Notes under the pieces: model-generated
Told to the model about the DNA's origin: nothing
Database searches by the model: none
The model's input: the letters and a program-made list of their open reading frames with translations, nothing else
Assembly: GCA_027002875.1 (NCBI GenBank)
Contig: JALWZC010000024.1
Coordinates: 1 to 37,183 of the forward strand
Direction: 5' to 3'
Source of the DNA: Desulfurococcales archaeon
GTDB taxonomy: Archaea; Thermoproteota; Thermoprotei_A; Sulfolobales; Desulfurococcaceae
DNA: 37,183 nucleotides
Program-made: the position numbers and the translations under genes
Shown here: piece after piece, positions 20,332 through 36,688 of the stretch
How the letters are laid out: each line of letters begins with the position of its first letter
Numbering within the stretch: position 1 is the stretch's first letter

Positions 20332-20401
20332 CGGGCCCGCGGGGATTCGAACCCCGGATCTCCGGCTCCGCAGGCCGGCGCCCTATCGCAGCCACGGGCC
20401 A
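20332..20401 (-). pseudogene. tRNA-Arg (anticodon GCG) with degenerate 5' half; possible att-site remnant
   Basis: 3' part intact: CCGGC-CTGCGGA-GCCGG-AGATC-CGGGG-TTCGAAT-CCCCG-CGGGCCC-G. 5' side TGGCCCG-TG-GCTGCGATAGGGC has a position-1 mismatch and a shortened D-arm without a GG. Confidence 0.7.
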
Positions 20402-20438: not shown

Positions 20439-21224
20439 TTGCCTATGCCGGTTGTGGATAACTCCCTAGTCCAAGGATTCGGGGAATGGCTACTAGACAG
20501 GGTTACCCCGGAAACAGCCAGAGACTATACCAATATAATTAGTAAGAAGCAATGGCCACCGAGACGTAGGAGTCATATCCGGGCATGGAGAAACTATGTA
20601 AAGTATCTCTTCGGCATTGGGCAAATAACATGGGAACAGTTACAACACTATAACCTATTCCTAAAGACACCTACTAGTAAGAAGTCGGGAGAGAAGCGTG
20701 TCGAGGACAATATTATTATGGACTATGTTAAGAGTATGAGGGATGCCGGCTATACTGATATAGCGTTTCTACTTTTAGGCGGTGCTAGGCTTAAACACAT
20801 AGTGTTAATGCTTAACGATTATAAACCGGGTGAAATAGTTAAACACCCATATGGCTCATTCGAGCCGAGGCTCTACTGTAATAATATATTCTGCAGATAC
20901 TATCTAGGAGTAAGGCTTGGATCCAAATACTGTGACTACATATATTACCCATTTATCAAAATATCGGGAAAACATATAGAATATAAGAAGTTAAAGGATA
21001 TATTGAACAAGCAGCTAGGAATAAGCTTCAAACTATTCCGTAAATATACTAATCAACGCCTAGAAGAAATAGCCAGAGAAAACAACATCAGGCTAGACGC
21101 TGTCAATCTAATTCTCACCAGGGAACTATCAGTTACCGGCAGCCACTATCTCGATACCAGGAACTGGGCGGATAGACTCTTCTCGGTCTACGTTGAGTAC
21201 CTAAAGGAGCGTGGGCTAGTTTGA
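20439..21224 (+). CDS. Archaeal tyrosine recombinase/integrase
   Basis: LLLGGARLKHIVLML (Arg box) and LFRKYTNQRLEEIARENNIRLDAVNLILTRELSVTGSHYLDTRNWADRLFSVYVEYL, typical crenarchaeal integrase C-terminus with catalytic HY. Confidence 0.85.
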   Translation: MPMPVVDNSLVQGFGEWLLDRVTPETARDYTNIISKKQWPPRRRSHIRAWRNYVKYLFGIGQITWEQLQHYNLFLKTPTSKKSGEKRVEDNIIMDYVKSMRDAGYTDIAFLLLGGARLKHIVLMLNDYKPGEIVKHPYGSFEPRLYCNNIFCRYYLGVRLGSKYCDYIYYPFIKISGKHIEYKKLKDILNKQLGISFKLFRKYTNQRLEEIARENNIRLDAVNLILTRELSVTGSHYLDTRNWADRLFSVYVEYLKERGLV

Positions 21225-22382: not shown

Positions 22383-24593
22383 ATGCGTTCCCTCTTTAAA
22401 AACGGGTTACCAATGATAAGGTATACAATTATAATAATGATAATCTTGGTCTTAGCGTCAACTATCCCACTAGTACCCATAACAAAATCCGTAAACGATG
22501 CTACTTCTGTCTCGAGGAGCGTGTATGCATTGTTTCTTGTTCCTTCTGTTGATAGGGATGGTTATGGACGATACGTTATTCCTTTTGATACTGGTGTTGA
22601 GAAGTTTATTGTTGGTGTGCCTTGGCGGCTTCGGGGGTATCTTAGTGGTTCTACTGATATTGCTTCTCCTAGTGATTTTAATACATCTCTTATCGTTGCT
22701 CTGGGCAGGGCTGGTGCATACAGTATTGATCCCAGCGTTAGAAAGTATTTGCTGTGGGCGGTTGGTAATGGTAGTACGTTAATATGTAACAACTTCTTCG
22801 CTGTCACTATTGCTGATGTATTGAATATTACATATGAATTAGTCTATGAACCCACGGGAAACCATACTGTGAATACTGTTTTCGGCAATGAATGGATCTA
22901 TACTAACACGGTTTACCCAGACTACTTGATCAAGATTCGGGGGAACGTTACGAATACAACTGCATGGATTAACTTTACCGACGGAATACACCCACTACTA
23001 TTCACCATGAAATACTATAAGGGCAGGATCCTCGTGTATCCCCAGTATGGATTGAAGAGTCCTGGATTGGAGAAGATTGTTCTTGATTATTTCAAGGAGT
23101 ATGCGTGGAGCAGTCTCGATGTGTTTAGTTATCTGTGGATTGATGGAAGGGATATGGCTGTTTTGAGAATAGATGATCTTTTACCATATATGGGTCTTGG
23201 AGCCGAGTCTATGAGTATTCTCGAGTCATTAATTAATGATGTACTGGCTAGGTATAATGCTTCGATTATGCTTGGAGCAGTAGCACTTGGCCGTAGCCTC
23301 GCCTCATCGAGCCTAGCCTCGGGATTGCCGAGCGGCTACAACTTTACTGGGAACTACTCTTTACTATTAAACGGGTATATCTCGAAGATCAATACTACGT
23401 TTATAATATATGATAAGGATGAAGATGGAAAAGTTGATACTATCAGGTATGACTTAAACCGAAACGGAGACTTCGATGATGACCCAGAATATACGCTGGG
23501 AACCCTTGACTATGTAGTAATACAGTATAACGGGTACAAGTATGATGTTACTCCGACATCTATTAACAGTCTTACCTCGCCATCAACGATTAGCTTCGGA
23601 CTACAGAACAATATTACGGAACAATACGATCCCACAATAATCGATACTGTGAGCAACTGGATTAATCAGGGGTACGTTGAAATAGTGGAACACGGATGGA
23701 ACCACTGGGCCACAGGCCTCGGCTATGGTACTGAAATATACTGGCCATGCAGCTCAACCCCATACAATGCCTCATTGATCACCAAGTTTATAACCAAGTC
23801 AGTAAACCTACTCAACACTACATTCAACGAGATTGTACCTGGAGTAGAGATTAGGCCCTATGGTAAATATGGGTACTATAAGGGTGATGACGAGGAATTC
23901 TATGCAGCACTCAGAAAACTCGGAGTAATCTCCATGTCCACGGCTGGCCTAGGCGTAGTAGACTATTTTACAGAGGTAAGAATGGATGGAGCAGTCTACG
24001 TTGACACCCTCGGAGACAATACACATCAAATAAACGACTACATGGAGAGACTATACCAGAGAATGGAGCCAGTAAACATTTTCAGCCACCCCTTCGAAAC
24101 AATAAACATGGAGAGATTCAAGTACTACATATGGTACATCAACAACCACACGGATCAATACATCCTAGTAAAACCAGAAAAATTCATCAACGTATACAAG
24201 GCACGACTAAAACTCCTCAACAACACTATATGGAACATTACAGAAACACAGGGCACCGTAACGATTAGTCTTCCCTTTACTTATGATGGCTTAACATTAA
24301 TGATCCCTAAGAAATACAATTATTACACTATTAACGGCGGAACTGTGATAGGAGAGAAGACTCTTTACAATAAAACATATGTACTAGTAAAAGCACTGTC
24401 CAATAAGATAATAATACAGAGAATCAGCGATAACAATAACAGTACCAGTACGTCAACAACTACCACTATTGATTATCCGCCGCCTACTCCTGAATACGGC
24501 AGGATGAGGATTGCAATTGTACTACTCGTATTAGGCCTAGGTGTTCTCTTGATAGCATTAGCGGCTGGATCTAGGAGAACTAGGAGATTCTAA
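22383..24593 (+). CDS. Secreted/membrane-anchored protein with polysaccharide-deacetylase (NodB)-like motifs and Ca-binding loops
   Basis: N-terminal signal/TM, C-terminal TM (LVLGLGVLLIALAAGSRRTRRF); AVLRIDDLL, EHGWNHW (HxxxH) and FSHPFE motifs; DKDEDGKVD and DLNRNGDFDDD loops. Confidence 0.75.
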   Translation: MRSLFKNGLPMIRYTIIIMIILVLASTIPLVPITKSVNDATSVSRSVYALFLVPSVDRDGYGRYVIPFDTGVEKFIVGVPWRLRGYLSGSTDIASPSDFNTSLIVALGRAGAYSIDPSVRKYLLWAVGNGSTLICNNFFAVTIADVLNITYELVYEPTGNHTVNTVFGNEWIYTNTVYPDYLIKIRGNVTNTTAWINFTDGIHPLLFTMKYYKGRILVYPQYGLKSPGLEKIVLDYFKEYAWSSLDVFSYLWIDGRDMAVLRIDDLLPYMGLGAESMSILESLINDVLARYNASIMLGAVALGRSLASSSLASGLPSGYNFTGNYSLLLNGYISKINTTFIIYDKDEDGKVDTIRYDLNRNGDFDDDPEYTLGTLDYVVIQYNGYKYDVTPTSINSLTSPSTISFGLQNNITEQYDPTIIDTVSNWINQGYVEIVEHGWNHWATGLGYGTEIYWPCSSTPYNASLITKFITKSVNLLNTTFNEIVPGVEIRPYGKYGYYKGDDEEFYAALRKLGVISMSTAGLGVVDYFTEVRMDGAVYVDTLGDNTHQINDYMERLYQRMEPVNIFSHPFETINMERFKYYIWYINNHTDQYILVKPEKFINVYKARLKLLNNTIWNITETQGTVTISLPFTYDGLTLMIPKKYNYYTINGGTVIGEKTLYNKTYVLVKALSNKIIIQRISDNNNSTSTSTTTTIDYPPPTPEYGRMRIAIVLLVLGLGVLLIALAAGSRRTRRF

Positions 24594-24628: not shown

Positions 24629-27367
24629 ATGAGTAGGGCCGTACTCGTAATTGTAATATTATTCCTCGTCCTAGCCCAGGTAATACCCCAGCTATACGCT
24701 GCTGGAACAGGCTATCTAGCGATAAAAGATTATCTCGGCACAGTATGGAGTATTGCCGATATCCAAAAAATCATTAATACAACCATAAACACGGATGAAG
24801 GCCCAAAAAGCCTAGCCGACTATTTCTGGATCGTGGTGGATAATAATACTGAAGAAAAGTATAATCTAAGAGACTTCATCAGAAGCCCGCTCGATAACGA
24901 GACTGCTGTCCTACCGCTCAGCCCTGGCGATCATACAATAGACATCTACTGGTTCGGCTATCACCAGCGACAACTAGTCCACATCGTCGAGGACCAGCAT
25001 TATGTGTTAAAACTCGAAACAGCACCAGTAGTACCATTTAAGACTGTAGGGGAGCCACCTAGTAGTGCTGAGTGGGATCTTGCTAGTAATCCCGAGGGTT
25101 TAACGATAGTTAGACGCGATGGTAAGGCATGGGTGAGGTTCGTTTATAATCAGAGCTATATCGAGGTTGCATGGTATGATGAGGATACTGGTTGGAACTA
25201 TCAGTCATTGGATATATACCTCGACACCAGCTACCAGTATAGATTCCATGTAAAGGACCCAGAGAATAACCAGTACTATGAGGAGAAGACTGGATCCTTC
25301 CTATGGCTTAGCTGGGACATATACAAGATCAAGGAAGAAGTGAAGTGGAACCGTACTGGGGAAATACTTCATGTATCATATATTGTGGGTATTGCTGAGA
25401 ATGAACAGTTGTTGAAGGGTGAAGAAGACTTCTGGAATTCTGTGGCGGGCACACTAACGGATCTTAGTAATTTCTGGAACTATGTGAGCCCAGTAACGTT
25501 CAGTATTACTAGTATAAAAGACTTCGTAGGCCTGGTGCAGGGAGCCTATGATTCATGGATGGGAAAAGTCTATGCTTCCAAATACCAGAAAACAGTATTA
25601 TTAGTATGGGATATATTCACAACACCACTACAAGTAATAATCCTAGCACACGCATACGATATAGATCAAAACGGTAATGTAACGCCTAAGCCGATCAGAA
25701 GTGCTAATGGGTTTACAATAAATAATAGACTAGTATATGTTAAACAACTCGGCGGCGGTTTAGAGTTACGTGTAGATTATTCGGATCCATATTCTTCTTC
25801 AGTGCAGGTGTCTAGTGGTAGTACAAGCCCAGATGTGAGGGTTTGGAGTATTTATTCAGGTGAGAAATTCGAGGTTACTGAAGGAACGGGAAAAGAGCTG
25901 TGGCTTCCTGGCGGAGACTATTATGTTTATCACGTTGATGATCTAAGCAAGTACAATTATTATCAGTGGCTGACGTTTACAGTAAAATATACTACAACAG
26001 ATTCCTCTAATACAATGCATTATAAACACTCTATAACTACAAGCTTGAAAATCGTATTTGATAATTCGAGTAAAGCAGATCAATTTGCGAATAATCTTGA
26101 CGCTAATGGTATAGTATATACTAGAAACGGAAACACTTTCGAGTTTACCACGAATATTTATGTATATAAAACGTATCAGTATAGTGGTCGAAAATACACT
26201 ATATTGTTTACAAATGAATACGATAATATAGAGAATCTCATACCACCCAGCAGTTCTGGCAAGGTAATGTTTTCAGTGTCGGGATACATACTAATGGGCT
26301 CTTCATCTGGTCCAGTAACCGTTACTGCTACAATATCAAACATACACTACATGACTGGAATACTCCCCAAGATGACTCCGCCGCAGATTTCATTGCTTAA
26401 GGATGGATACCAGGTTGTGAATAATGCTTTCGCAGTCCAGGTCTATACTGATCTCTACCGTGAGGATAAGGATGCCTATATTCTGGGCTACTATGTACTA
26501 GGTAATGAGCCCCCGCCGAGCTATATTATACGTGATGTCTACTACGATATAGAGCATGACATAATGCATTACGTGTATACTATTATTTCGGCGGACTGCT
26601 ACGGGCAGGATCTAGTAGATGAATATGCTGTATACAACTCTACAACCAATACACGCGAATACTATCTAAGCTACAAGAAAACTGTAAGACTATTCAACGA
26701 TGTAACACTAGCATTGTTCAGCTACTCAAGGATGTCTTTCCTCAACCTAGCACCAGAAGTAATAAAGTACCTACTAGCACTACCACCCTCGGAAGGGGGA
26801 TATGGAACCCCGATAATTGACTGGTCCACGGTTAGCACTATAACACTTAACTTCAGCAGACCCTACGAGCTATACTACTATAATAAACAAGAGGATCTAT
26901 GGATCAGGGTAAAACCAGTATACCATAACGATACAAGGAGTTACGACATAGTAGAATACACGGACAATATCCTGGTCGAAAACCTGAAGTCTGGAGACAT
27001 GTCACAATACTACTATAAACTGACCTACACGGATACTAACACCACATATAAGGGATGGCTATTTAACGACAATGGAACATTGAAAATGATAACTGGATCT
27101 GTTACCTGGAGTCTAACACAGGCAGAGTTAGATCAGCTAATGCAGCAACTACAGCTCCATGGAATATACGATAAGTGGGCAGAACAATGGAGAGAGATAG
27201 CAGAGAAACTAGGACTGCTAAACAGCTTCCTCAGCGGGTTAACCAATGCATGGAACTGGCTTGGAAACAACTGGAAATGGATCCTGCTGGGGCTGGCAGG
27301 ATTATTCCTTCTACTCGTGTTGGCAACACGCGGATCGAGTAAGGTGGTGTTAGGAAGATTTAAGTAA
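24629..27367 (+). CDS. Large (912 aa) secreted, C-terminally anchored surface/spike-like protein
   Basis: Signal peptide AVLVIVILFLVLAQVIPQLYAA; many N-glycosylation sequons; C-terminal WILLGLAGLFLLLVLATRGSSKVVLGRFK. Confidence 0.75.
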   Translation: MSRAVLVIVILFLVLAQVIPQLYAAGTGYLAIKDYLGTVWSIADIQKIINTTINTDEGPKSLADYFWIVVDNNTEEKYNLRDFIRSPLDNETAVLPLSPGDHTIDIYWFGYHQRQLVHIVEDQHYVLKLETAPVVPFKTVGEPPSSAEWDLASNPEGLTIVRRDGKAWVRFVYNQSYIEVAWYDEDTGWNYQSLDIYLDTSYQYRFHVKDPENNQYYEEKTGSFLWLSWDIYKIKEEVKWNRTGEILHVSYIVGIAENEQLLKGEEDFWNSVAGTLTDLSNFWNYVSPVTFSITSIKDFVGLVQGAYDSWMGKVYASKYQKTVLLVWDIFTTPLQVIILAHAYDIDQNGNVTPKPIRSANGFTINNRLVYVKQLGGGLELRVDYSDPYSSSVQVSSGSTSPDVRVWSIYSGEKFEVTEGTGKELWLPGGDYYVYHVDDLSKYNYYQWLTFTVKYTTTDSSNTMHYKHSITTSLKIVFDNSSKADQFANNLDANGIVYTRNGNTFEFTTNIYVYKTYQYSGRKYTILFTNEYDNIENLIPPSSSGKVMFSVSGYILMGSSSGPVTVTATISNIHYMTGILPKMTPPQISLLKDGYQVVNNAFAVQVYTDLYREDKDAYILGYYVLGNEPPPSYIIRDVYYDIEHDIMHYVYTIISADCYGQDLVDEYAVYNSTTNTREYYLSYKKTVRLFNDVTLALFSYSRMSFLNLAPEVIKYLLALPPSEGGYGTPIIDWSTVSTITLNFSRPYELYYYNKQEDLWIRVKPVYHNDTRSYDIVEYTDNILVENLKSGDMSQYYYKLTYTDTNTTYKGWLFNDNGTLKMITGSVTWSLTQAELDQLMQQLQLHGIYDKWAEQWREIAEKLGLLNSFLSGLTNAWNWLGNNWKWILLGLAGLFLLLVLATRGSSKVVLGRFK

Positions 27368-29281: not shown

Positions 29282-29788
29282 ATGGGGTTCTCTGTGAGGT
29301 TCAAGAGAAGTAAGAGAGCATTAATGCATATAGCGTTGCTCCTAGTGGCTGCTACGACTTTTCTGCAGAACCTGGTAGACTACTATCAGAGCCGGAGTCA
29401 GGGTGCTTATCAGCCAACGCTGCAGAGAATCCTCATACTCGGAGTCCTACTATTGAGTATGCTGGGACTAGTAGTATCCTACATGGCTACAGCCCCTACA
29501 CATAAACGGGAACAGGACATGGCTAGGAGAACACGTAAGAGTAAATGGATCCAGGAAGCAGTAAAGCACCCCGGAGCCCTCACTCAGTGGTTCAAAAGAC
29601 ACCGAAAAGAATTGAAGAGAAAGCTGGGATTCGATCCCATCACTAAAAAGGGAGATATCAATGACAGGGCTATACCGGCCACGATTAAGCTGGCGAAAGA
29701 AGGAAGGATAAAAATAACGGAGAAAACACTAAGAAGACTCTACCTTGCCAAAACTCTTCAGAAGCTTAGGAGAAGGAAGAGGAAGTAG
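29282..29788 (+). CDS. Two-TM membrane protein with basic C-terminus
   Basis: 168 aa; ends LRRLYLAKTLQKLRRRKRK. Confidence 0.6.
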   Translation: MGFSVRFKRSKRALMHIALLLVAATTFLQNLVDYYQSRSQGAYQPTLQRILILGVLLLSMLGLVVSYMATAPTHKREQDMARRTRKSKWIQEAVKHPGALTQWFKRHRKELKRKLGFDPITKKGDINDRAIPATIKLAKEGRIKITEKTLRRLYLAKTLQKLRRRKRK

Positions 29789-32700: not shown

Positions 32701-33690
32701 GTGAAGCACCTAGGACTAATACTCGTCTTATCCATACTCCTATCCCTAGTTACACCAGGGATCCTTGTACGGGGAGAAGACCAGACCATACTCGTCGTCC
32801 GCAAAGAAATAAGATTCAACATAACAGTTATAGCGGGGCCCGACGACAACGGTACTGTGCGGACGGTTATCCTGGTCCTAGACTTCTACTTCATCAACGC
32901 CCAGCCAAGCAATAGTGATGTAAACATTAGTTTCCCAGTCATGATAAGAATCGGGGACAAAATAATCAATAAGACTGTGGTAGTCCCGCTTAGGATTCGC
33001 GGAGAGCTCGAGAAAATAGTTGTTGTAAGCGCAGGGGAAGCAACGCCTGAGCCTAGCAGTGGCGAAGAAAGTAGCGAGGAAATAATAGTCTACTATCCTG
33101 GAAGCACCGGTCCAACGGCAAACAATACTACTTCTCCCGGCCAGACGGAGAGCTCGGGTGGATCAAGCGGTGTAGCAGCTACCAGGACCGTGACCAAGAC
33201 CATAACCAAGACAAAGACCATAACAATGGGGGCTGTACCAGGACAGCAGGGAACCACTACACAGCCGACAACGAGTCCACGTGTTCCCGGTGCTCCCTCG
33301 AGGACCGAGAGCACGGGAACAGAATATGCCGATATTCTGTTTGGCGTATTACTGGGTGGACTTCTGGGAGCAGTACTGATTATAGTATTGATAATGGTAT
33401 TAATGAGGCGTAGACCGCCCAGCAAAACCAGACAAGTAGAGGCTCCGACAACCCCGCAGCAGACGCAACAAGTGGTCCAGCCAGAAACACCGGTTTCACA
33501 GGGAGAAAAGCGGCTGCAGATTCCTAGACTGAAGTGCCCGGTCTGCGGAGAAACTATAGAGCCGATAGTAACAGATGACAACAGACTAGTATGCCCGGCC
33601 TGCCACGCCGAAATAGGGAGAATAAGAGAAGACGGGACACTAGAACTAGCCACGCCTGAGGAGAAAACCATGGAAGAAACTGAGCAGTAA
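32701..33690 (+). CDS. Single-pass membrane protein: secreted domain, Thr/Ser-rich stalk, TM, cytoplasmic zinc ribbon
   Basis: Signal peptide; TRTVTKTITKTKTIT stalk; ILFGVLLGGLLGAVLIIVLIMVLMRRR; CPVCGETIEPIVTDDNRLVCPACHAEIG. Confidence 0.75.
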   Translation: MKHLGLILVLSILLSLVTPGILVRGEDQTILVVRKEIRFNITVIAGPDDNGTVRTVILVLDFYFINAQPSNSDVNISFPVMIRIGDKIINKTVVVPLRIRGELEKIVVVSAGEATPEPSSGEESSEEIIVYYPGSTGPTANNTTSPGQTESSGGSSGVAATRTVTKTITKTKTITMGAVPGQQGTTTQPTTSPRVPGAPSRTESTGTEYADILFGVLLGGLLGAVLIIVLIMVLMRRRPPSKTRQVEAPTTPQQTQQVVQPETPVSQGEKRLQIPRLKCPVCGETIEPIVTDDNRLVCPACHAEIGRIREDGTLELATPEEKTMEETEQ

Positions 33691-33797
33691 ACCAATGAAG
33701 AATAAAGCACTCCGTAGCGAAACTATTATTTTTACATTATCGAAACGCCCCTATACTACAGTACATCCTACTAAATAAATAACGGTGAAAGACAAAA

Positions 33798-33982
33798 ATG
33801 AACTGCACACAAGCCCAAATAGTACTACTTATAGAATACATCGAGAGATAAGTAGAACAAGAATTTAAAAACAAGGAATACCACGCGACAAAAGAACAAA
33901 GATCCTAGAAAAGATCGAACGCATCAAACATAACATACTGGAATACGGAATAACAGAAATAGAAAAACAACTAGGAATATAG
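33798..33982 (+). pseudogene. Decayed short ORF
   Basis: MNCTQAQIVLLIEYIER*VEQEFKNKEYHATKEQ, then in another frame RTKILEKIERIKHNILEYGITEIEKQLGI*: one in-frame stop and one frameshift. Confidence 0.4.
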
Positions 33983-34023
33983 TCTCAAAATAGACTTAAT
34001 TGTATGTAATTATTCAACATCGC

Positions 34024-34074
34024 ACGATTTTTAAAGAAATCGATGACAATTTTTAAAAGTGACAATTTTTAAAG
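34024..34074 (+). repeat. Iteron-like repeats ACRATTTTTAAA x3
   Basis: ACGATTTTTAAAG (34024), ACAATTTTTAAAAG (34046), ACAATTTTTAAAG (34062); the last two lie within exact TGACAATTTTTAAA copies 16 bp apart. Confidence 0.6.
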
Positions 34075-34080
34075 TAAATA

Positions 34081-34128
34081 ATAGCTATTCACTCTATTAT
34101 ATAGCTATGAACTAGGTAGTATAGCTAT
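34081..34128. promoter_or_regulatory. Three palindromic ATAGCTAT octamers at exact 20-bp spacing
   Basis: Starts at 34081, 34101, 34121; the last overlaps the ATG at 34127. Confidence 0.7.
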
Positions 34129-35065
34129 GAATGATATCATAACTCTAATGAAAAGGAGACTGAAAGAAGTTAAAAGAAGTGGCAAAAAGAACCCAACTGG
34201 CCGTATATACCTTCCTAAAGAGTTAGTTGGAACTTATGTATCCTATATCACATATCAAGAGCTTCAACAATTGGAGCGAGATATTCGTAGATATAGAACG
34301 ATAATGAACTTTATGAGACATTTGCTTGATTCTAAGAATCATACAAAAATGTTTAGCGTAATAAGTGAGACTTGGAATCCTATAACCGGATGTACACATT
34401 ATTGCATCTATTGTTGGGCACGTAGACTAGCCTTAACTAAACTGAAGAATAGTAAGAAATACAAGGACGGCTTTCTTCCTAAACTACATCCAGAAGAATT
34501 TAAGAAAAAATTTAAGGGCGGTATGGTTTTTGTAACAGACATGGGCGATCTATTCAGTAATGGTGTACCGGATGAATGGATAATCAGAGTTATAGAGCAT
34601 ATAAAGAAATTCCCTAATACATACTTTTTATTCCTAACAAAGAATCCCATACGATACCTTGACTTCATAGATAGATTCCCACCAAATGCAATACTCGGAG
34701 CAACAATAGAGACAAATAGAGATGAACTCTACTTAAACCACAGTCCACGTATATCGCTAGCCCCCCTACCTAGTTTAAGGTATAAGGTAATGAAAGAATT
34801 AAAATGGGACATGAAATTTGTATCCATAGAACCAATTCTTGACTTCGACTTAGAAGAATTCGTGGAATGGATTAGAGAGATCAATCCATTCCTAGTATAT
34901 GTTGGATACGATAATTATAATTGGAAGCTTCCCGAACCCCCGCTAAGCAAAACCTTGAAACTAATTAGAAAGATATCAGAGTTTACACTAGTAGTAAAGA
35001 AAACAATTAGGCCTGCATGGAATGAATCAATAATAAACTACAAGAATAAGTCGTCAAAAAGTTAA
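34127..35065 (+). CDS. Radical-SAM family protein, phage Gp37/Gp68 (DUF5131)-like
   Basis: SETWNPITGCTHYCIYCWARRLA (CX3CX2C), VFVTDMGDLFSNGVPDEWI, FLFLTKNPIRY, GATIETN, FVSIEPILDFD. Confidence 0.85.
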   Translation: MNDIITLMKRRLKEVKRSGKKNPTGRIYLPKELVGTYVSYITYQELQQLERDIRRYRTIMNFMRHLLDSKNHTKMFSVISETWNPITGCTHYCIYCWARRLALTKLKNSKKYKDGFLPKLHPEEFKKKFKGGMVFVTDMGDLFSNGVPDEWIIRVIEHIKKFPNTYFLFLTKNPIRYLDFIDRFPPNAILGATIETNRDELYLNHSPRISLAPLPSLRYKVMKELKWDMKFVSIEPILDFDLEEFVEWIREINPFLVYVGYDNYNWKLPEPPLSKTLKLIRKISEFTLVVKKTIRPAWNESIINYKNKSSKS

Positions 35066-36031
35066 GGGTTTCATACGGCCTCTAAACACTTCGATTAACT
35101 TATTAAACACAGTACTATCGGTTCTCTCGATACGTGGCTTAAGACTTTTAATTATAGGGCTTAACCAGGGATTACCTCTACTAGTACGTCTTACCGCTAG
35201 TAAAATATGATAGTAGAATGCATGAGAACCCATTACCTTTATAGGTATGACAATATCTCTCTTACTACGTAGCTTATCAATGTATATATTTAATAGATCT
35301 TCATCATTACTAGCTTTCTTCCATGAATCATCGCCGTAAAACTCATCTAAGGCGTTAACACTACTAAATCTTCCATTTCGCCAATTACCCCATATTCGCC
35401 GAATACCCGACGTCATAAAATTAAATAATAGATCAATATTAAGATCCAGCAATTTATTAATAGTACTCCACTTAGGCTCGGTTCCCTCTGGATCAACAAA
35501 CACAAGAGAATGCCTACAATTCCTCAAAAGATAGGAGTAATCTACATAATTCATATCTCCAGTAATAATTGTTACTTTCGTGGAATCGACAATTCCCCAT
35601 TCAGCTAGAGCATCAATGGCTTTCCGTAAAATAGCGGATTTTAGATAATCAAGCTCTATGAATACATACCTATCAAATTTTTTCTCTTGCCTTGGAACAA
35701 GAATGCTAAGCAGAGGAGAACCATAGAGTAGTAAGCTTTCGTTACCTTCATGTATTTTAACAATACCGGAACCAGCAAATGTATCAACGTAGCATATCTG
35801 GTTGAAGTATTTCTTAGCAATAATAGTATAAACATCCAGGTAATAAGCTAGAATAGACAATTTTATACCGGTCCACGGACCGCGAGAATATAGATAGTCA
35901 AATGCCTTAGGAATAGTTTTAGAAATAACGTTGAAGATCTTATTCGGCGAGGGATTTAAACCCGTTAATGTATTAATACGATCCATCCACCATTCATACA
36001 ATGACTTCTTTCGTCGCGGCATCATATCCAC
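35054..36031 (-). CDS. tcmP: Three-Cys-motif partner protein TcmP-like (Rossmann/methyltransferase-like)
   Basis: GPWTGIKLSILAYYLDVYTIIAKKYFNQICYVDTFAGSGIVKI, GSPLLSI, DRYVFIELD, LVFVDPEGTEPKWSTI. Confidence 0.8.
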   Translation of the reverse strand: MDMMPRRKKSLYEWWMDRINTLTGLNPSPNKIFNVISKTIPKAFDYLYSRGPWTGIKLSILAYYLDVYTIIAKKYFNQICYVDTFAGSGIVKIHEGNESLLLYGSPLLSILVPRQEKKFDRYVFIELDYLKSAILRKAIDALAEWGIVDSTKVTIITGDMNYVDYSYLLRNCRHSLVFVDPEGTEPKWSTINKLLDLNIDLLFNFMTSGIRRIWGNWRNGRFSSVNALDEFYGDDSWKKASNDEDLLNIYIDKLRSKRDIVIPIKVMGSHAFYYHILLAVRRTSRGNPWLSPIIKSLKPRIERTDSTVFNKLIEVFRGRMKPLTF

Positions 36032-36688
36032 CTAGCGAAACCAAGATGATGAGAAGCTGTTATTAATTATGCATTCCGGTAGTTTTAGTGGTAGTGTTAG
36101 GTTATAGGTTCCTTCCACTCCGGGTATAGTGTAGATTATAGTGATGTTTCCAATGGTTACTGTTTTACCGCATATTAGAAGCTCTGAGCCTGGGGCTGGT
36201 TTAATGCCTGTATTGATCCACACGCTAGACATAGAGGCTGCTAGGCCCGTGTCTCCACCGGCTATTCTGGTAACCTGGCTCCATGGATCTATTACCCTGG
36301 GACCCCGATACACTAGTGTATCATTAAGATAAATCCTCTCAATAATTACCTCGACAGGATAAGTATTCTTCAAAACAAGGCCAACCCTAATAGTACCACT
36401 CTCTACCCGAATATCATAAGAATCAACACGAAGACTACCCGGCGGCGGAGCAGTCAATAAAGTAGAAGTGGTAGATATAGTGGATGATACAGATGAACTA
36501 GTACCCGACGAAGCAGCAGGAGCCTGGGAAGCCGTGGATACGCTACCAGTACATGTCGATGAACAACTAGTAGAACCCCCACCACGCTCATAAACAGGCA
36601 AAAACATTGAAACAGCAACAAAACCAACAATCAAAACCAAAACCACTAATAAAACACTACCAACAAGATAATAACCATCCAAAAACAA
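36032..36688 (-). CDS. Membrane-anchored secreted protein with Ser/Thr-rich linker
   Basis: N-terminal TM, Ser/Thr-rich spacer, beta-rich C-terminal domain; stop abuts the tcmP start (36031). Confidence 0.65.
   Translation of the reverse strand: MFLDGYYLVGSVLLVVLVLIVGFVAVSMFLPVYERGGGSTSCSSTCTGSVSTASQAPAASSGTSSSVSSTISTTSTLLTAPPPGSLRVDSYDIRVESGTIRVGLVLKNTYPVEVIIERIYLNDTLVYRGPRVIDPWSQVTRIAGGDTGLAASMSSVWINTGIKPAPGSELLICGKTVTIGNITIIYTIPGVEGTYNLTLPLKLPECIINNSFSSSWFR

Follow-up and report, generated by a model that had tools for sequence, protein, structure and literature searches.

A known but uncharacterized DUF5131-TcmP gene pair in an archaeal provirus, with evidence for fusion and exchange of partners

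The two convergent genes described here form a known but uncharacterized kind of pair, found in this case in a provirus of a Desulfurococcales archaeon; what is new is the evidence that the two proteins occur fused in a single chain and that they exchange partners. We tentatively read the pair as a two-enzyme nucleic-acid-modifying conflict module with interchangeable radical-SAM halves, a reading whose probability we put at roughly 0.45, and for which we infer both the chemistry and the defence role. The features of the window (i.e., the whole stretch of 37,183 nucleotides that was analysed) are listed in Table 1. The first-pass annotation of this DNA contained neither partner exchange nor the fusion, and it also lacked two further points: that the overlapping convergent layout recurs elsewhere and that TcmP has an RlmJ-like fold.

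Table 1. Positions of the gene pair, its surroundings, and the element features in the window
Feature	Coordinates	Strand	Details
Left att copy (tRNA-Arg 3' fragment, 56 bp)	20332..20387		Perfect repeat at contig 40947-41002
Archaeal phage integrase of the element	20439..21224	+	PF16795, 49.5 bits (cut-off, 27); phrog_5127
912-aa element core protein	24629..27367	+	Related elements from the same archaeal family encode homologues
Fusellovirus VP2-like capsid protein	29282..29788	+	PF25632, 32.3 bits (cut-off, 27)
329-aa element protein, left edge of cargo slot	32701..33690	+	Partial homologue at the left edge of the L249 slot
AT-rich region (30.7% GC) upstream of DUF5131	33691..34126		Two exact tandem TGACAATTTTTAAA copies at 34044 and 34060
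DUF5131 (Gp37/Gp68-like) radical-SAM-type gene	34127..35065	+	312 aa; CX3CX2C at aa 89-96
Overlap of the convergent DUF5131 and TcmP 3' ends	35054..35065		12 bp, tail-to-tail
TcmP (three-Cys-motif partner) gene	35054..36031	-	325 aa; DTFAGSG, GSPL, and VDPEG motifs
Predicted surface/membrane protein (218 aa), right edge of cargo slot	36032..36688	-	Homologue at the right edge of the L249 slot

The two proteins and their predicted structures

The plus-strand gene product matches PF07505 with 75.6 bits (E=5.8e-21; gathering score, 28.9), and its cluster motif, C89-x3-C93-x2-C96 (CTHYCIYC), is formed by cysteines that are invariant in alignments A1 and A4. The protein belongs to an archaeal subfamily that combines the CX3CX2C motif with an N-terminal extension, here of approximately 75 residues (GRIYLPKELVG...) with a weak resemblance to DUF2080/AbrB-like proteins, whereas the bacterial DUF5131 proteins have a C-x6-C-x2-C motif, as read from an alignment consensus and not from biochemistry. 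The generic Radical_SAM model PF04055 scores the protein under its gathering threshold (21.3 versus 29.5 bits), and NF033496 is below its cut-off both for this protein and for the fusion protein described below. The score of 30.3 bits against TIGR04471 (radical SAM mobile pair protein A; cut-off, 355 bits) marks the two as related only, and PF20903, the spore photoproduct lyase (SPL) family, gave no match at E<=0.1.

The minus-strand gene product matches TIGR04474 with 88.3 bits (E=7.6e-25; cut-off, 53). Both open reading frames were thus placed above the cut-offs of the families to which the first-pass annotation had assigned them, the CX3CX2C motif was confirmed, and the described tail-to-tail arrangement with its 12-bp overlap is exact. 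Among the PADLOC profiles, PDC-M41A recognizes TcmP (73 bits) and PDC-M41B recognizes DUF5131 (74.3 bits), so that components A and B are both present and adjacent in the window, as judged by these profile matches rather than by PADLOC's own system thresholds. PADLOC lists this kind of pair as the candidate defence pair PDC-M41, where the PDC label denotes a candidate and not a validated system (PMC11514479). The likeness to the TcmP/three-Cys-motif pair (TIGR04474 with PF07505; PDC-M41 and PDC-M30) lies in the adjacency of the genes, the above-cut-off matches, and the mobile context; the window pair differs in its convergent, overlapping geometry and in the lack of the C-terminal GMT-wHTH domain of TcmP. 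Searches of PDB sequences with the single window proteins returned nothing meaningful, phage records held no close relative of the window TcmP, and its best matches in plasmid records are 23-27% identical. In the literature searched, we found no functional paper on the activity of any TcmP or DUF5131 family member, and two papers that mention TcmP only list it.

The AlphaFold model of TcmP (pLDDT, 83.4) is closest in a Foldseek search to RlmJ, the 23S rRNA A2030 N6-methyltransferase (E=3e-7), which the family profile of TcmP also finds (E=1.8e-4). In the profile alignment, DTHAGAG, YPGSPLIA, and IDPPYE of RlmJ correspond to D-x-FAG-x-G, the GS motif, and the VDP motif of TcmP, respectively. 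Ser100 and Asp164 of RlmJ contact AdoMet, and DPPY is its catalytic motif IV (PMC3814359). The window TcmP retains the GS and the Asp that match these two residues; on the other hand, the motif IV sequence DPP(Y/F) is absent and replaced by DPEG (VDPEG), and only the Asp of this motif is invariant in the TcmP alignment A3. TcmP is accordingly predicted, from its modelled fold and motifs, to have an RlmJ-like Rossmann methyltransferase fold and likely binds SAM, and the DPEG in place of DPPY suggests a target or chemistry different from that of RlmJ. The N-termini also differ, and the likeness is one of predicted fold and motifs.

The DUF5131 model has a lower pLDDT of 77.1, which is weaker over the first 75 residues (about 53-70), and its closest Foldseek matches are NifB and spore photoproduct lyase. 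The TM-scores of the Foldseek matches are moderate (0.38-0.47). The loci taken from genome searches were excluded from the modelling, so that the alignments behind both models are mostly bacterial and their accuracy is possibly lower, chiefly in the N-terminal extension of DUF5131. The predicted radical-SAM-domain fold and the CX3CX2C motif are common to DUF5131 and SPL. At other loci, the partners of TcmP include true members of PF20903, which score over the Pfam cut-off. The source of all TcmP partners therefore seems to be the SPL-like portion of the radical-SAM superfamily.

The integrated element and its cargo slot

A perfect 56-bp repeat of tRNA-Arg sequence occurs at 20332-20387 and, beyond the right end of the window, at contig positions 40947-41002, where it lies within an intact tRNA-Arg(gcg) gene (contig 40946-41021). 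The most plausible interpretation of the tRNA-Arg called by ARAGORN at 20332-20401 (70 bp) is that it represents the left att copy in truncated form, and the integrase gene sits just inside it. Among capsid genes of the element, the VP2-like gene matches over its cut-off, and other capsid genes were not identified. The pair is therefore located within an integrated, provirus- or virus-like element of approximately 20.6 kb (20332-41002), in agreement with the integrated element proposed in the first-pass annotation. The 736-aa (22383-24593) and 912-aa proteins of the element have no Pfam or PHROG match, and relatives of the latter were found in only two other genomes, both of the same family, when the genomes of the order were searched; the element may represent a group of archaeal viruses not yet described. 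The kin of the host are Desulfurococcales-like Thermoproteota, and the host is a presumed hyperthermophile, as labelled earlier.

A contig (L249) from a second genome in this family shares the backbone of this element, with at least 10 genes colinear at 40-89% identity. Between its homologues of the window genes 32701-33690 and 36032-36688, L249 carries four unrelated low-GC genes and lacks the pair, a contig comparison that is unaffected by the 7% contamination estimated for that genome. The pair has a GC content of 35.6%, below the minima of 37.2% for 298 equally sized windows in the rest of the element and 37.5% for 971 such windows in the host, although these windows overlap and are not independent. 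The unrelated genes held by L249 in the same slot indicate that the pair is exchangeable cargo of this element family, and the status of element cargo suggested earlier is borne out by the att repeats, the differing slot content, and the atypical GC. No convincing repeats that might mark a transposon were found flanking the pair.

The slot of L249 (11459-15327; genome G445, contig C50) itself contains a convergent pair, which overlaps by 64 bp. One of its products, of 226 aa, is a wHTH protein in which an EVKKK stretch resembles PD-(D/E)XK; the other, of 414 aa, has a CxCxxC site and, in a very small database, a phmmer match (E=6e-7) to an archaeosine-TGT-looking open reading frame. Judged by these motifs only, the L249 genes may constitute a further base-modification/nuclease cassette; a PADLOC search of this alternative cargo gave no strong match.

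Upstream of DUF5131, positions 34024-34077 hold three near-identical AT-rich blocks, two of which are the exact TGACAATTTTTAAA copies spaced 16 bp apart, and the AT-rich region with its blocks is a possible promoter or TATA-box/operator array. Joint transcription of TcmP and the co-oriented 218-aa gene is probable, because the stop codon of the latter abuts the GTG start of TcmP. Scans for sigma-70 promoters and terminators, with models that suit bacteria and not archaea, yielded no more than expected by chance.

Pairing, fusion, and exchange of partners

TcmP was found in 23 of the 398 genomes of the phylum and in 8 of the 214 genomes of the order, the latter spread over 7 genera. By our own count in the phylum survey, a three-Cys radical-SAM gene adjoins 22 of 25 TcmP loci, which bears out the pairing that the first-pass annotation had given for these families; of the three unpaired loci, two match the family model in part and score below its cut-off, and the third is located amid transposase genes. 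Since both window frames have homologues in multiple phyla and TcmP so regularly adjoins such a gene, neither is a chance open reading frame. Two decayed TcmP loci were also observed: one (L227, genome G528) contains a TGA within its frame and has transposase genes as neighbours, and the other (L023, genome G034) is truncated beside a TnpB-like frame, as expected for a mobile, dispensable module.

The strongest evidence that DUF5131 and TcmP would work together is a fusion in another archaeon (L016, genome G230), a 633-aa frame free of stops in which DUF5131 (aa 82-240) and TcmP (aa 355-581) each score over their own cut-offs. The window DUF5131 groups with this fusion and with the DUF5131 proteins of three co-directional DUF5131>TcmP pairs from the same order (L020, L225, and L226; SH-aLRT, 95), to which it is 55-62% identical and with which it shares the N-terminal extension. 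The TcmP proteins of these four loci, however, belong to other clades, and are only 29-36% identical to the window TcmP, and the geometry of the loci is different. The window TcmP instead groups with that of L017 (bootstrap, 100; SH-aLRT, 98), its closest relative at 46% identity, and L017, L018, and L021 are convergent Thermoproteota pairs with the same tail-to-tail overlap. Their radical-SAM partners are of a different, PA0069/Rv2578c/mob-pair-B-related family and are 29% identical to the window DUF5131 over a short stretch.

The radical-SAM tree thus gives the opposite grouping to the TcmP tree. An AU test rejects a grouping of the window TcmP with those of L020, L225, and L226 (p=0.006; p=7.8e-6 when L016 is added), with p-values that are somewhat optimistic because the group was picked from the DUF5131 relatives after a quick TcmP tree had been seen. 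Other pairs of loci behave likewise: DUF5131 is 94% and TcmP 27% identical between L004 and L012, TcmP is 60% and the radical-SAM protein 20% identical between L010 and L013, and the corresponding values for L018 and L019 are 41% and 23%, the latter over a short stretch. L003 and L004, with TcmPs 51% identical, have SPL and DUF5131 as their respective partners. On a 42-row TcmP tree, which is partly unresolved and for which partner types were assigned by hand, the partner type changes at least nine times. These comparisons indicate that TcmP and radical-SAM proteins swap partners and that the radical-SAM half is interchangeable. At L010/L026 (genome G124, contig C1), one radical-SAM gene stands between two different TcmP homologues, possibly an intermediate stage in the exchange of partners.

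Possible functions of the pair

In the preferred reading, that of a nucleic-acid-modifying conflict module, the element integrated in the tRNA-Arg gene would carry two proteins that probably act as one unit, presumably as a complex. TcmP, with its SAM-binding motifs, would recognize a base and probably methylate it, and DUF5131, as an SPL-like radical-SAM protein, would carry out a radical reaction at that base or at the methyl group just added. An interchangeable radical-SAM half would couple one TcmP lineage to different radical chemistries and thereby change the product. A role in conflicts among viruses, elements, and hosts appears most likely, i.e., a candidate defence module that the provirus carries for the host and itself. 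Several observations weigh against this reading. TcmP lacks the DPPY of the m6A enzymes and may serve only as a SAM- or nucleic-acid-binding scaffold; DUF5131 can work alone, because its stand-alone form is commoner in the phylum than the pair (68 of 398 genomes have DUF5131, often solitary, against the 23 with TcmP); and exchangeable partners disfavour a finely coevolved interface.

The first-pass annotation had offered defence, counter-defence, or modification as possible roles; the PDC-M41 candidate listing and the bacterial relatives among restriction-modification genes add to this suggestion, and the role itself we infer. The neighbours of the bacterial pairs matched 504 PADLOC models, with type IIG and type I restriction at the top, and those of DUF5131-only loci matched 127, a rough comparison in which models and not systems are counted and the sets differ in size (49.5k versus 32.3k aa), so that the difference is suggestive only. 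On a Rhizobium plasmid, two TcmPs are clustered with DUF5131, a DEAD/DEAH helicase, and an ISP restriction enzyme, and a Pseudomonas plasmid has the order integrase-DUF5131-TcmP. Sinorhizobium co-regulates tcmP with the defence gene hna through NolR (PMC12445080).

Viral counter-defence and DNA repair are the main rivals, and they overlap with the preferred reading in chemistry and differ in purpose. The former, in which the pair would modify the DNA or transcripts of the element so that they escape cutting by host restriction or CRISPR, suits a pair that resides in a virus-like element and agrees with the frequency of DUF5131 with TcmP in IMG/VR contigs and with a methanogen virus in which DUF5131 is close to a DNA methyltransferase. 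We nevertheless regard it as rather unlikely, given that bacterial pairs also occur in chromosomes and in ICE-like plasmids beside restriction systems and that the pair is an accessory component of the element family that carries it.

The second rival holds that the SPL-like protein reverses a lesion (a thymine or alkyl adduct) that TcmP finds or prepares, so that the genome of the element is protected. The resemblance of the DUF5131 fold to SPL and the PF20903 partners at other loci speak for such repair, as do two loci with solitary DUF5131: L232, in an archaeal plasmid, has PCNA and Orc/Cdc6 nearby, and L237, in the methanogen virus, has PCNA, a resolvase, and the above methyltransferase nearby. 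The position beside replication genes suggests DNA as the substrate and keeps both the repair and the self-modification readings alive. Repair is, even so, improbable in view of the missing PF20903 match of the window protein, the patchy, mobile distribution in the order, the bacterial pairs among restriction genes, and the exchange of the cargo slot between elements.

A bolder form of the modification idea, which we likewise regard as improbable, is that TcmP systems are modular mark-swapping machinery. Depending on the captured partner from the SPL superfamily (DUF5131, a mob-pair-B/PA0069-like protein, or SPL), the base marked by TcmP, whether methylated or recognized, would become a different hypermodified base. 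By exchanging partners, mobile elements could then change their mark in an arms race, and the element in the window would be a freshly re-partnered case.

The opposite possibility, that a solitary methyltransferase and a solitary radical-SAM enzyme became neighbours by recombination in the cargo slot, is very unlikely. The opposite strands and separate upstream regions, the often solitary occurrence of DUF5131, and the disagreement between the two gene trees would fit it; the fusion, the radical-SAM neighbour at 22 of 25 TcmP loci, and convergent overlapping layouts that recur at least four times in Thermoproteota argue against it. The majority (65) of 86 non-identical pairs are co-directional; 14 are convergent, 6 are divergent, and 1 is a fusion. 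An overlap of 4-129 bp is present in 12 of the 14 convergent cases, and these 12 come from Thermoproteota, Melainabacteria, Pseudomonadota, Bacteroidota, Chloroflexota, Campylobacterota, and a viral contig. The convergent, 3'-overlapping layout is hence a recurring alternative in bacteria and archaea and no peculiarity of the window locus. That the overlap itself is the point, with antisense transcripts coupling the expression of both genes in a toxin-antitoxin-like switch, could draw on these overlaps and on the approximately 10 changes of the convergent state on the TcmP tree, but it is hardly credible, as most relatives are co-directional or fused and do not need the layout, and compact genomes commonly contain small overlaps between convergent genes.

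Both TcmP and DUF5131 occur widely in phages, plasmids, and genomes. The fusion, the repeated partner swaps, and the RlmJ-like fold lead to a testable idea, namely, that a methyltransferase-like core acts on nucleic acid together with an exchangeable radical enzyme, and the versions from thermophiles, together with the fused single chain, offer attractive starting points for a first biochemical study. If this idea is true, radical chemistry would join the nucleic-acid modifications used in virus-host conflict.
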